A stretch of DNA of 64,000 bases, from NCBI RefSeq assembly GCF_025232395.1, contig NZ_CP065938.1:930001-994000 (forward strand), in the 5' to 3' direction. The DNA is from Taurinivorans muris. GTDB lineage: Bacteria; Desulfobacterota; Desulfovibrionia; Desulfovibrionales; Desulfovibrionaceae. A program made the translations under genes and the position numbers. Position 1 is the first letter of the stretch, and the number at the start of each line of letters is the position of its first letter. Below the pieces are notes generated by a model that ran no database searches, had not been told where the DNA came from, and was given only the letters and a program-made list of their open reading frames with translations. Positions 42,220 to 46,810 of the stretch are shown piece after piece.

Positions 42220-43131
42220 ATGGACACGCCAGAAGATAAAAACAATAACGAGGTTGAAGTGATTATCATTACCGGACTTTCAGGTTCCGGCATAAGCACA
42301 GCCATTCAAGTATTTGAAGATATGAACTTTTTCACCGCAGACGGACTGCCCCCTTCCGTTATTCCGGAATTTATCGCCCTTGCCCATAAACCTGAAATGC
42401 AGCATTTCCGAGGTATTGTTTTAGGTCTTGATTTAAAAAGAAAATACCTCAATGACCCATTGGCGGAACTTTTGCCCGTATTTACCAAAATACGCCAGAC
42501 TGACGATACGAAAGCAACGCTCATTTATCTTGAAGCGGACAAAGACAGCATTCTCAGACGCTATGCCTCGACAAGACGCCCCCACCCCTTGGAACAGGAA
42601 GGCTATTCCCTTGAAATGGCTATGGAGGAAGAAAAAAACCGTCTTTCCGGCATACGGACCATGGCCGGTCATATCATCAACACCACGGGCTACTCCATAC
42701 ACGATCTTAGGCGCCATATCCAAAAACACTTTTCCAAAACCATGGAAGACAGCCATTCCATGTGGGTCACCATCATGAGTTTCGGCTATAAATACGGTAT
42801 TCCCAAAGATGCCGATCTTGTTTTTGACATGCGTTTTTTGCCTAATCCGTTTTTCGAGCCCAAGCTGCGCGAATACACCGGGCTGCAGCAGGAAGTTGCG
42901 GATTATATTTTCAAAGATGAACCCGCTCAAAATTTCAGGCGGCAGCTGCTTGAGTTTTTGCAGACCATTCTTCCTTATTACGACAACGAAGGACGCTACC
43001 GCCTATGCATAGCCATCGGCTGCACCGGAGGCTGCCACCGTTCTGTCGCCATGGTTGAATACCTTGCCAAAAACCTTATGCAAAGCGGGTACAGAATAAT
43101 AAAAGAACACAAACAGTTAACAAAAAAATAA
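42220..43131 (+). CDS. rapZ: RapZ-like RNase adapter protein with altered Walker A
   Basis: A 303-residue RapZ/YvcJ family protein. In E. coli RapZ binds the sRNA GlmZ and recruits RNase E. The C-terminal domain carries the conserved GCTGGCHRSVAMVEYLA near residue 267. The N-terminal P-loop reads GLSGSGIST, with Ile25 where the catalytic Lys is expected, so ATP or GTP binding is probably lost. The RNA-binding C-terminal domain looks intact. It is 2 bp upstream of the M24 peptidase gene. Confidence 0.93.
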   Translation: MDTPEDKNNNEVEVIIITGLSGSGISTAIQVFEDMNFFTADGLPPSVIPEFIALAHKPEMQHFRGIVLGLDLKRKYLNDPLAELLPVFTKIRQTDDTKATLIYLEADKDSILRRYASTRRPHPLEQEGYSLEMAMEEEKNRLSGIRTMAGHIINTTGYSIHDLRRHIQKHFSKTMEDSHSMWVTIMSFGYKYGIPKDADLVFDMRFLPNPFFEPKLREYTGLQQEVADYIFKDEPAQNFRRQLLEFLQTILPYYDNEGRYRLCIAIGCTGGCHRSVAMVEYLAKNLMQSGYRIIKEHKQLTKK

Positions 43132-43132
43132 C

Positions 43133-44200
43133 ATGAACACGATCTATCAAAAACGCCGCGAGGCGGTACGCCCCAAATTAACGGAAGAAAATTTGACAGC
43201 CCTGCTTGTGAGCTACCCAACCAACAGATTTTACCTTTCCGGTTTTGAACTGCACGACGGCCAATGCAATGAAAGTTCAGGGCATATTCTTATCCAAAAA
43301 AACGGAAACGATATTCTTTTTACGGATTCACGGTTTTATGAAGCAGCCAAAACCCTTTGGGACGAGAAAAATATTTTCATTTATTCAAATCAAATCGAAG
43401 ATATGCGGAACTATTTAAAAAATATGGTCCATGGAAAAATCGGATTTGAAAGTAAGACAATCAGCCAGTATTTTTATGAAAACCTTGCTCAGGGCTTAGA
43501 ACTTGAACCTTGTGACGGAATAATCGAAGAACTGAGAATAATCAAAGACGAAGAAGAAATCAAAGCCATAAAAGAATCAATAGCCGTAAACCACAAACTT
43601 TTCGAATGGCTGCCAAGCACGTTCCAAGAAAACAAAAGCGAAGCGGAACTCGCTTTGGAGATTGAAACATTTTTCAGAAAACACGGAGCAACGGAAAACA
43701 GCTTCGCTCCCATTGTCGCCATAAACAAACACGCCGCCCGCCCCCACCATATCCCGGACCAGGAAACGAAAATCACCGAAAATTGCCATATACTGATAGA
43801 TGTGGGCGCACGATATAAGAATTATTGTTCCGACCAAACCCGTACCTTTTGGTTCGGCGATACAATGGATTCCCGCTTTCAAACCATGCTTGAACAAGTG
43901 CAAGAAGCCCAAATGGAAGCCATAAAAATTCTCGCCCCTGATTTGCCTTGCCAAGACGCACATTTAAAAGCTGTGGAAATTTTTAAAAAATACGGCGTTG
44001 AAAAAGCATTCAGCCATTCTCTCGGGCACGGTGTCGGACTTGATGTTCACGAAGACCCGCGCCTTTCCATACGCAGCAAGCGCCTTTTGAAACCTAACAT
44101 GATAGTGACCGTTGAACCCGGACTTTATTATGGCGACTACGGCGGCATACGCTGGGAATATATGGTACGCATAACCGATGACGGATGCGAAATTCTCTGA
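43133..44200 (+). CDS. M24-family aminopeptidase (Xaa-Pro peptidase-like)
   Basis: A 355-residue pita-bread metallopeptidase. The five metal ligands are visible: Asp in LIDVGA, Asp in CSDQTR, His in GHGVGLDVHE, Glu in TVEPGLY and Glu in WEYMVRI. The N-terminal 120 residues form the creatinase-like domain. It should cleave N-terminal residues before proline in the cytosol. It follows rapZ by 1 bp and ends before a 309-bp gap holding repeat copy B and a bidirectional terminator. Confidence 0.93.
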   Translation: MNTIYQKRREAVRPKLTEENLTALLVSYPTNRFYLSGFELHDGQCNESSGHILIQKNGNDILFTDSRFYEAAKTLWDEKNIFIYSNQIEDMRNYLKNMVHGKIGFESKTISQYFYENLAQGLELEPCDGIIEELRIIKDEEEIKAIKESIAVNHKLFEWLPSTFQENKSEAELALEIETFFRKHGATENSFAPIVAINKHAARPHHIPDQETKITENCHILIDVGARYKNYCSDQTRTFWFGDTMDSRFQTMLEQVQEAQMEAIKILAPDLPCQDAHLKAVEIFKKYGVEKAFSHSLGHGVGLDVHEDPRLSIRSKRLLKPNMIVTVEPGLYYGDYGGIRWEYMVRITDDGCEIL

Positions 44201-44509: not shown

Positions 44510-45934
44510 TTATTTTGAAGATTTTTTATTTTGTCCGCAGTTTTTCTCAATTTTTTCAATTAAATCATTTAACTGCCTGCCTACGGGGCTTTCCTTTGAC
44601 ACTTCTTCCTCAAGAGAGGAAATTCCTTTTATCACCGTGGAATGCCTGCGGTTAAACCCGTGTCCGATTTCTTCCAACGTCATATCGGTATGCTTACGGA
44701 GCAGATAAAAAGCCAAATTCCTTGCCAGCACATAATTTTGACAGCGGGAATTTGATTCCAGCTGCTGCCGCGTCACGCCAAAACCTTTGCACACCATATC
44801 GACGATACTTGGCAAATCAAAAGAAGGTTCGGTCTGCGATACTTGCTGAATCACATCATAAACAATGTCTTCCGTAATTTCCGTTCCCAAAACTTTCGCT
44901 CTGAACACCACATTCTGCAAACATGATTCAAGCATACGCACATCGGCATCGATACGTTTCGCCATAAGTTCGGCAATATGTCCGGGCAGGATAAGCCCCA
45001 GTTTTTTTGATTTTTCGACCAAAATATGAAAACGTGTTTCCATTTCGGGTTTTTCGATGCTCGCCACAAATCCGGAATGGAACTGCGAAGCCAAATAACT
45101 GTCAAGACCGGCAATTTCCTTTGGAGCGAAAGAACTTGTCAATACGACTTTTCCTCCGCGGCTGTGAATGGATTTTATAATGGAAAGAAGCATTTCCTGC
45201 GTCTTGTCTTTTCCTTGGAAGAAATGCACATCTTCAAGCAAGAGCAAATTGCACCCCGCAAAACGCTTTTTAAAATTATCAAAATCTTTGGAAAAACTTG
45301 CTTGGACAAATTGGGAAGTAAAGGTTTCGGCAGTTAAATACACAACATTCAAAGCGGAATTTTTTGTTTTTTCCTGCATAGCCATTCCGACCGCCTGAAT
45401 CAAATGCGTTTTGCCAAGTCCGGAACAGGAAGAAAGAAAAAGCATATTGGTCAAGGCATTGTCCGTAATGATATTCTCCGCGGCAGCCACAGCCAGTTTA
45501 TTGGAAGGACCCACCACAAAATCATCAAAAGAATATTTAAATTCAAAGGGCTGTTCATAGGTATACTGAAAAGGCAAAAGAAGCTGGGAATTACTGCCTG
45601 TCGCAAGCATTGCCGGCGCTGTGGCTATACTTTTTGCCACATCTTCGGAAGAAAAAGGTTTGATCACGGCGACATCCGCATTCAACGCCTCATAGGCGAC
45701 ATCAATCAAGGCGCTGTTTTCAATTTCCAAAACCTTTGCCGCAGCTTCCTGAAAAAACACGCTGTATTTACGCAGATATTTCGCAATATGGGTATTACGG
45801 GCATAAAGCACAAGACAAGGAATTTCATTCCTGTATTGAACTTCTCCGTCCAGGGTTGCTATCCAGACCGAATATTCCGCTTCCGGCAATATTTCACGCA
45901 ACCGTGCTTGAATTTGTGACCATATTGTTTTCAT
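44510..45934 (-). CDS. dnaA: DnaA-family replication initiator, divergent
   Basis: The 474-residue protein has the DnaA plan: domain I (MKTIWSQIQARL), a linker, the AAA+ domain (about 135-345) and a C-terminal DNA-binding domain with NRRHSTVIKGI. The ATG at 45934 gives the usual MKxxW start. Signature residues deviate. Walker A is S-C-S-G-L-G-K-T (first Gly missing), Walker B is E234-D235 instead of D-D, and Tyr280/Gln284 stand where E. coli has Arg281/Arg285 (arginine finger). In the DNA-binding loop, Arg replaces the conserved Asp of GRDHTTV. Sensor 2 (DVRMLE) is kept. Not followed by dnaN or gyrB. It may be a second DnaA paralogue. Confidence 0.88.
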   Translation of the reverse strand: MKTIWSQIQARLREILPEAEYSVWIATLDGEVQYRNEIPCLVLYARNTHIAKYLRKYSVFFQEAAAKVLEIENSALIDVAYEALNADVAVIKPFSSEDVAKSIATAPAMLATGSNSQLLLPFQYTYEQPFEFKYSFDDFVVGPSNKLAVAAAENIITDNALTNMLFLSSCSGLGKTHLIQAVGMAMQEKTKNSALNVVYLTAETFTSQFVQASFSKDFDNFKKRFAGCNLLLLEDVHFFQGKDKTQEMLLSIIKSIHSRGGKVVLTSSFAPKEIAGLDSYLASQFHSGFVASIEKPEMETRFHILVEKSKKLGLILPGHIAELMAKRIDADVRMLESCLQNVVFRAKVLGTEITEDIVYDVIQQVSQTEPSFDLPSIVDMVCKGFGVTRQQLESNSRCQNYVLARNLAFYLLRKHTDMTLEEIGHGFNRRHSTVIKGISSLEEEVSKESPVGRQLNDLIEKIEKNCGQNKKSSK

Positions 45935-45952
45935 AAAAGCATTAGTATACAC

Positions 45953-46290
45953 ATTTATTTAAAAAAGCTATCAGCAGAAAATTAAAATTGCTAATCCTTG
46001 AAAAGAAACTTATCCACAAAACAGCAAAGGATAATAATCAACAAAAACAAAAAGTTATACGTTTATCTATAAAAAACATTTATCCTGTAAAATCTCTATG
46101 ATTACACGGCTTAGCAATAGTCAATCACTTTTTCAACAAAAATAAATTTTTTCTTTCCACAATATAAAAATAATTTTTCTTCATTTTACTCAATTTTTAT
46201 CAATTTTACTCAATAATAAAAATTTACCATATCAAAATAAGAGGTTATCACAAAAATATTTTTTCAACTTTTTTATTTGCTATAAAATCA
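45953..46290. other. AT-rich intergenic block with a DnaA box (possible origin or DnaA-controlled site)
   Basis: This 340-bp gene-free block lies between dnaA and a DciA-like gene. It holds one perfect DnaA box, TTATCCACA, at 46010-46018. Degenerate boxes may occur at 46080 and 46245. The 46140-46260 part is extremely AT-rich and contains the direct repeat ATTTTACTCAAT twice around 46183-46214, suitable for a DNA-unwinding element. Only one strict box argues for caution; a site for dnaA autoregulation is the alternative. Confidence 0.4.
46010..46018 (+). promoter_or_regulatory. DnaA box
   Basis: TTATCCACA, an exact match to the strong consensus, about 75 bp upstream of the dnaA start on the opposite sense. 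Confidence 0.7.
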
Positions 46291-46291
46291 A

Positions 46292-46810
46292 TCAGTTATC
46301 CGTATTCTTTAGTTTCTCCTCATAATCCAGCCGGTTACAAAAAGCTTCATAACACCGTTCTATGCTTTTCATGCCGTGAAAATCGATTTTCTCTCCGTAA
46401 CGCTTCGGTCTTGGGGGAAAAACGTTTTTTAAATGCTTGGGTATTCCCTTATATTCAAGCAACGATTTTTTGCCTCGGATAAGTGAAAACTCAAGCCGTT
46501 CAAAATAATTCGCCAAACCATAAGCCTCCAGAAAAACATTCATTCTTTCGAGCAGTTCAGCATAATACATGCGGGTTTCCTGCAAATCCAGAGGATTATC
46601 CGCTCCGAGATAAAGAACTTTTCCCTTATAGGAATACGGCTTCACCAAATCAATGATTTCCTGCGGGCAAACCATATCCCAATTATCCCAAAGCTGACGC
46701 AAAATGTCCTGATGCGGGTTTTTCACATATTGTTTCAAAAGCTCAGGGCAAAAATCCTGCAAGGCAACAGGTGATGATGTTCGTCTTACTTTTTGTCGTT
46801 TTTTTCTCAT
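46292..46810 (-). CDS. DciA-like protein (DUF721)
   Basis: A 172-residue basic protein. The central part (WDNWDMVC, then a VLYLG strand, then LQETRMYYAELLERMN) fits the DUF721 fold, whose members are named DciA and load the replicative helicase in bacteria lacking DnaC. The call is by pattern. Its place directly upstream of the origin-like block and dnaA supports a replication role. The first residues are Lys/Arg-rich, and the ribosome binding site is weak. Confidence 0.7.
   Translation of the reverse strand: MRKKRQKVRRTSSPVALQDFCPELLKQYVKNPHQDILRQLWDNWDMVCPQEIIDLVKPYSYKGKVLYLGADNPLDLQETRMYYAELLERMNVFLEAYGLANYFERLEFSLIRGKKSLLEYKGIPKHLKNVFPPRPKRYGEKIDFHGMKSIERCYEAFCNRLDYEEKLKNTDN

Follow-up and report, generated by a model that had tools for sequence, protein, structure and literature searches.

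A dnaA variant beside dciA

The window analysed here is a stretch of 64,000 nucleotides from the mouse-gut bacterium Taurinivorans muris; for strain LT0009 of this species, the available part of PMC10507020 gives a complete genome of 2.2 Mb and a G+C content of 43.6%. It contains an intact open reading frame for a DnaA homologue of 474 amino acids counted from its ATG, or 480 from an alternative GTG start at 45952; this protein is referred to below as type A and is made up of domain I, a linker, an AAA+ domain and domain IV (Table 1). As in canonical DnaA of E. coli and B. subtilis, the AAA+ domain and the helix-turn-helix of domain IV scored above the Pfam cut-offs (138.9 bits against Bac_DnaA, PF00308, cut-off 23; 72.2 bits against Bac_DnaA_C, PF08299, cut-off 31.5). 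Domain I was borderline against DnaA_N (PF11638; 23.4 bits, cut-off 24.6), a model whose cut-off was exceeded by four of the five other A proteins scanned. Unlike canonical DnaA, the window protein fell below the cut-off of the NCBIfam DnaA equivalog TIGR00362 (336.9 against 343.9), as did all three of the other A proteins of the class that were scanned (314.7, 323 and 340.3). The model for Hda, likewise a DnaA-derived AAA+ homologue, also aligns (TIGR03420), but its score of 77.3 is below the cut-off of 194.8, and the window protein carries domain IV, which Hda lacks.

A pseudogene was ruled out by the intact reading frame and by dN/dS ratios for A of 0.11 and 0.12 in the two unsaturated pairs, in which dS (1.3 and 2.1) is near saturation; for T. 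muris and G061, saturation left no ratio to report. A structure predicted for the window protein on its own had a mean pLDDT of 43.6, and no result given here rests on it.

Open reading frames at 42220-43131 and 43133-44200 border dnaA-A on one side; we take them, from resemblance, to encode a RapZ-type nucleotide-binding protein and an Xaa-Pro peptidase, and their homologues flank A also in G039 and G060. On the other side, the DciA-like neighbour that had been proposed was confirmed by a DciA match of 39.5 bits (cut-off 24). In the genus, dciA adjoins dnaA-A in five of six genomes, the five having either gene; in the sixth (G062, 91% complete) neither was seen. The available part of PMC5109545 describes the location of dciA as not conserved in Deltaproteobacteria.

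The original prediction also placed a DnaA-box region beside the gene. One perfect TTATCCACA does lie upstream of dnaA-A, but it is a single box and there is no cluster. It stands in a 339-bp AT-rich gap in which 0.006 occurrences were expected by simulation, and it is likely to be autoregulatory. Across the T. muris genome the word occurs 39 times against seven for the reversed word, with 32 of the 39 sites pointing one way relative to the fork; this orientation bias is probably mostly a matter of composition: in a sample of 331,520 bases, 300 words made by shuffling its letters lean as well (392 to 200), and TTATCCACA itself stands at 3 to 2.

Table 1. Features of the dnaA-A locus (window positions) and location of the second dnaA gene
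Feature	Position	Strand	Basis or remark
dnaA type A, 474 aa from ATG	44510..45934	-	Pfam/NCBIfam matches and alignments
Domain I (DnaA_N-like, borderline)	45776..45928	-	PF11638 profile match
Walker A, Ser169 (for first Gly) to Lys175-Thr176	45407..45430	-	sequence
AAA+ ATPase domain (Bac_DnaA)	45065..45538	-	profile match
Walker B, Glu234-Asp235	45230..45235	-	sequence
Box VII Tyr280-Leu-Ala-Ser-Gln284, in place of Arg281 and Arg285 (arginine finger)	45083..45097	-	alignments
Sensor 2 Arg333 (E. coli Arg334), retained	44936..44938	-	alignment
Domain IV, DnaA-box-binding helix-turn-helix (Bac_DnaA_C)	44621..44809	-	profile match
Arg430 at E. coli Asp433 of GRDHTTV	44645..44647	-	alignment
Perfect DnaA box TTATCCACA upstream of dnaA-A	46010..46018	+	sole perfect site in the 64-kb window
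dciA (helicase operator)	46292..46810	-	sole PF05258 match in genome
dnaA-B	G000:C1:1614051-1615073 (L034:5052-6074)		directly upstream of the only dnaN

Functional residues of the window protein

Alignment with E. coli DnaA (sequence from NC_000913.3) put Tyr280 and Gln284 in the columns of Arg281 and Arg285, as originally predicted and with exact numbering from the ATG start. Since both Arg285 and the box VII Arg281 are replaced, we term the protein a DnaA variant and not a typical DnaA. A shifted arginine was excluded within box VII, where LDSYLASQFHSGFVASIEKPEMETR aligns without gaps to relatives with SRF and to B. subtilis DnaA (8btg) and where the window protein has neither Arg nor Lys; a sequencing error was excluded by the three other species of the genus with A, which read Gln (G060) or His (G039 and G061). 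The window protein also differs from canonical DnaA in having Ala226 in the column of E. coli Arg227, and the trans interface of T. muris A therefore looks eroded.

Other functional positions are shared with canonical DnaA. The cis ATP residues (Walker A Lys178, Walker B Asp and sensor 2 Arg334, E. coli numbering for the first and last) are present, as are Val211, Lys243, Arg399 and His434; a Lys occupies column 245, which with Val211 completes the single-stranded DNA-binding motif. The further departures from canonical DnaA listed in the original prediction, a Ser for the first Gly of Walker A, a Glu-Asp Walker B and an Arg at Asp433 of GRDHTTV, are indeed there, but they are traits of the whole A type. 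Of 86 A-labelled proteins, eight of which do not belong to the class, 85 have Ser or Ala for the first Gly of Walker A, 85 have the Walker B Glu and 82 have a residue other than Asp at 433. The same proteins retain V/I211 (80/86), R227 (77/86), K243 (84/86) and K/R245 (81/86), and all 86 have K178 and R334. Thermotoga maritima DnaA (2z4r) resembles the window protein in that the GRDHTTV Asp is absent (NRSH), but it retains the SRF finger motif.

A second DnaA at the origin

The window gene, unlike canonical dnaA, is not beside dnaN. A search for a canonical dnaA next to dnaN and gyrB, put forward as a check with the original prediction, led to a second gene, dnaA-B, in the order B, dnaN, gyrB, gyrA; parA and parB are nearby, with parS-like palindromes upstream of parA (the par and gyr genes are presumed to be such from sequence resemblance). 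The gene is in the expected place, but its product is not canonical: T. muris B has 340 residues, no DnaA_N match and a divergent ATPase (30.3 bits to Bac_DnaA, 87.1 to Bac_DnaA_C), and it reads ETAVSQG at the finger site, the arginine finger being absent. Within the genus only the B of G061 has a finger. A missed canonical dnaA was ruled out in T. muris: the genome is one contig of 2.17 Mb (2,172,708 bases), in which the PF00308 search returned A and B only, and the PF08299 search A, B and one 13-bit match at chance level.

GC skew in 23 sampled pieces of the T. muris genome was negative up to 1582 kb and positive from 1609 kb, and a continuous 40-kb profile had its minimum near 1608-1614 kb. 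B therefore lies at the origin, and the position of the window gene, 975 kb, is mid-replichore. In G040, which belongs to another genus, skew flips at the contig start, where B sits, and A lies mid-replichore at 2.23 Mb. B is accordingly beside dnaN and at the skew-defined origin in both genera tested, and the A locus was rejected as origin in both genomes. The DnaA boxes found at the T. muris origin were only near-matches, upstream of parA.

For B, T. muris and G060 share 125 of 228 residues across the ATPase part and 84 of 102 across domain IV; for A the figures are 198 of 240 and 86 of 102. The dN/dS of this pair is 0.11 for either gene, indicating that A and B are each under purifying selection. 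Class DnaA-B shares the DnaA AAA+ domain and domain IV with A, but differs in its DNA-contact and interface residues: columns 211, 227, 243 and 245, where B is harder to align than A, have no consensus (the commonest residue is Tyr243, in 22/64), so that the single-stranded DNA-binding positions appear lost, and the canonical DnaA-box residue Asp433 is kept in 59 of 64.

Distribution of the two types

The A and B pair was found in 56 of 60 genomes of the class; the exceptions have A only (G006, G091 and G101) or neither (G087). G006, listed as 100% complete, carries an A that keeps the Arg. In a sample of the family, at least two DnaA matches were present in 50 of 59 genomes, and six of the nine single-match genomes are less than 90% complete. 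B was seen without A in three drafts, G011 (98% complete), G024 (99%) and G062 (91%). Absence in drafts is weak evidence, because G087, listed as 99% complete, had no DnaA above cut-off by either the AAA+ or the domain IV model, perhaps through an assembly gap.

In a tree of 61 hand-chosen proteins (60 of the 185 aligned, plus E. coli) that was midpoint-rooted only, A and B each formed one group on a 100/100 branch, and A shared one side of another 100/100 branch with DnaAs of other Desulfobacterota classes (e.g. L219, L214 and L223). Such an A-like protein is the only DnaA match in seven genomes from outside the class (G104, G112, G115, G126, G130, G134 and G135); unlike the window protein, all seven of these single DnaAs keep Arg285.

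Repeated loss of the arginine finger

The finger column was compared in 185 aligned DnaAs, whose rows are related and not independent; labels were assigned by best HMM score, identical open reading frames were counted once and those shorter than 250 aa, then 330 aa, were excluded. All 35 canonical-labelled proteins had Arg285 (the tree puts four of them, L210, L220, L221 and L222, with the A-like group), as did 57 of 64 B proteins (a count that takes in two genomes of the window's species, L002 and L102, and L242, which is poorly aligned in box VII) and 54 of the 86 A-labelled proteins. With the A count restricted to the class, which removes eight rows, 46 of 78 have Arg285 and 32 do not; such a comparison of orthologues had been proposed alongside the original prediction. 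The replacing residues are His (18), Cys (5), Gln (4), Tyr (3), Leu (1) and Ser (1).

When the box VII columns were left out of a tree of A, it still required at least six switches between Arg and non-Arg, at G083, family f4, genus g30, G018, Taurinivorans, and genus g40 with G026; this was a quick tree in which some branches are long, that of L151 included, and the losses in L151 and L157, like the changes at G083 and G018, are each seen in a single sequence. The finger has been lost repeatedly and in particular lineages; the oddities of Walker A, Walker B and domain IV belong to the A type.

Family f4 reads Gln at the finger in all nine of its A proteins, from eight of eight genomes. In two of these, G101 and G091, one assembled as a single 3.76-Mb contig, a domain IV search found no second DnaA above cut-off (G101 also gave a 25-bit match in a 64-codon ORF). 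G101 has no dnaA ORF upstream of dnaN, and its sampled skew was too noisy for placing its origin. The AAA+ model found no B in the other six genomes of the family (one 84% and one 90% complete), where the extra AAA+ matches are short and IstB-like by profile position. At the finger, genus g40 shows His, Tyr or Ser in the 19 A proteins sampled and SR in four of five sampled B proteins, the fifth being poorly aligned.

Which DnaA initiates

The original prediction had offered a choice between a second, specialised DnaA and a different initiator mechanism. A second dnaA does exist; the evidence nevertheless leans towards a different mechanism, because A is the only DnaA found in f4 and the finger is missing there, and the choice is unsettled because B holds the origin position. 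We consider it reasonably probable that in T. muris A is the working initiator and acts without an arginine finger, B being probably an accessory or regulatory paralogue. Walker A, Walker B and sensor 2 of A would hold ATP in cis, its usual hydrophobic and basic motif would grip single-stranded DNA, and its domain I, with DciA, would recruit the helicase. The finger, which normally senses the ATP of the neighbouring subunit, would have become dispensable in type-A DnaA of the class and then been lost repeatedly; A would then assemble at the origin by means of DNA and of the remaining interface contacts, and its ATP/ADP switch would be weaker or differently wired. B would be an origin-binding or regulatory accessory that kept DnaA-box recognition and lost the melting motifs.

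Several observations count for A as initiator: A keeps the single-stranded DNA-binding and cis ATP residues and is under purifying selection, f4 and G006 appear to have A alone, seven genomes from outside the class have an A-like protein as their single DnaA match, and A carries domain I and adjoins the only dciA in the genus. Against it count the position of B at the origin with canonical box residues, the three drafts with B in which A was not seen, the purifying selection on B, the lack of R227 in T. muris A and the behaviour of finger mutants. In the available part of PMC8287927 the DnaA arginine finger is described as invariant, and its substitution by Ala abolished strand separation in the DnaAs of B. 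subtilis, S. elongatus, H. pylori and D. radiodurans; these alanine results speak against easy loss of the finger. The same part reports that the three Gram-negative proteins among these separated strands with ADP at rates similar to those with ATP; several interactions, its authors suggest, go into the active complex (PMC8287927). The natural finger losses would fit an extension of this idea in which the trans ATP contact is dispensable in type-A DnaA.

The roles may instead be reversed, with B as the initiator and A as a specialised paralogue, a regulator or stress initiator, whose finger was free to drift. The placing of B at the skew-defined origin upstream of dnaN-gyrB-gyrA, repeated in a second genus, agrees with this, as do the drafts with B alone and the retention in B of Asp433 (59/64) and Arg285 (57/64). 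We nonetheless regard it as unlikely: B has no consensus at 211, 227, 243 and 245 (with an alignment there less sure than that of A), was not found in f4 or G006, and in the genus lacks domain I and has a fast-evolving ATPase (125/228 against 198/240 in A), and an A-like protein serves as the only DnaA match in seven genomes of other classes. A division of labour, in which B marks the origin through canonical boxes and recruits A to melt DNA and load the helicase, an Arg-bearing B perhaps supplying the finger to A, would account for the complementary losses (box recognition kept in B, melting motifs and domain I in A), for the location of B at the origin and for genus g40, in which A has His, Tyr or Ser and most sampled B proteins read SR. 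Such a two-part initiator seems quite unlikely to us, however, as f4 and G006 appear to manage without B, and the finger of T. muris B is gone too, so B cannot supply one to A there.

Very unlikely, in our estimate, is a conventional ATP-dependent filament in which a different basic residue of A has taken over from the finger. Arg or Lys at the E. coli 277 column is commoner in finger-less than in finger-bearing A proteins of the class (71% against 15%, in a phylogenetically uneven sample), but the window protein has Gly in this column and its box VII offers no basic residue, and no column among those listed as richer in Arg/Lys is basic throughout the finger-less A proteins, the best reaching 83%.

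The reading of A as a finger-less initiator can be widened, more tentatively, to the class as a whole, and here we would speak only of a possibility on the doubtful side: assembly of the class initiator would be independent of the trans arginine-ATP contact, the finger having been lost about six times and one family living on such a DnaA alone. On this wider reading the ATP/ADP switch would have been replaced, because neither the apparently sole DnaA of f4 nor either DnaA of T. muris has a finger; the replacement might be a system split between B for box recognition and A for melting.

T. muris and its relatives may thus start chromosome copying by a modified mechanism. Natural finger-less DnaAs, including the apparently sole DnaA of a family, make the universality of ATP-bridged filaments directly testable, and their close finger-bearing relatives allow matched comparisons. 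If A is the initiator, the dnaN-linked dnaA is not always the right candidate, and automatic annotation could mislead in this class. In open-licence literature, the titles and abstract starts among the matches listed described neither a DnaA pair in Desulfovibrio nor a finger-less DnaA, which is a weak test of novelty, and the available parts of PMC5835720 and PMC4672049 contain nothing on paired DnaAs. Two genomes of other Desulfobacterota, G113 and G149, have two DnaAs each (L215/L216 and L217/L218), one A-like and one outside the A-like group, a further case of paired DnaA types.
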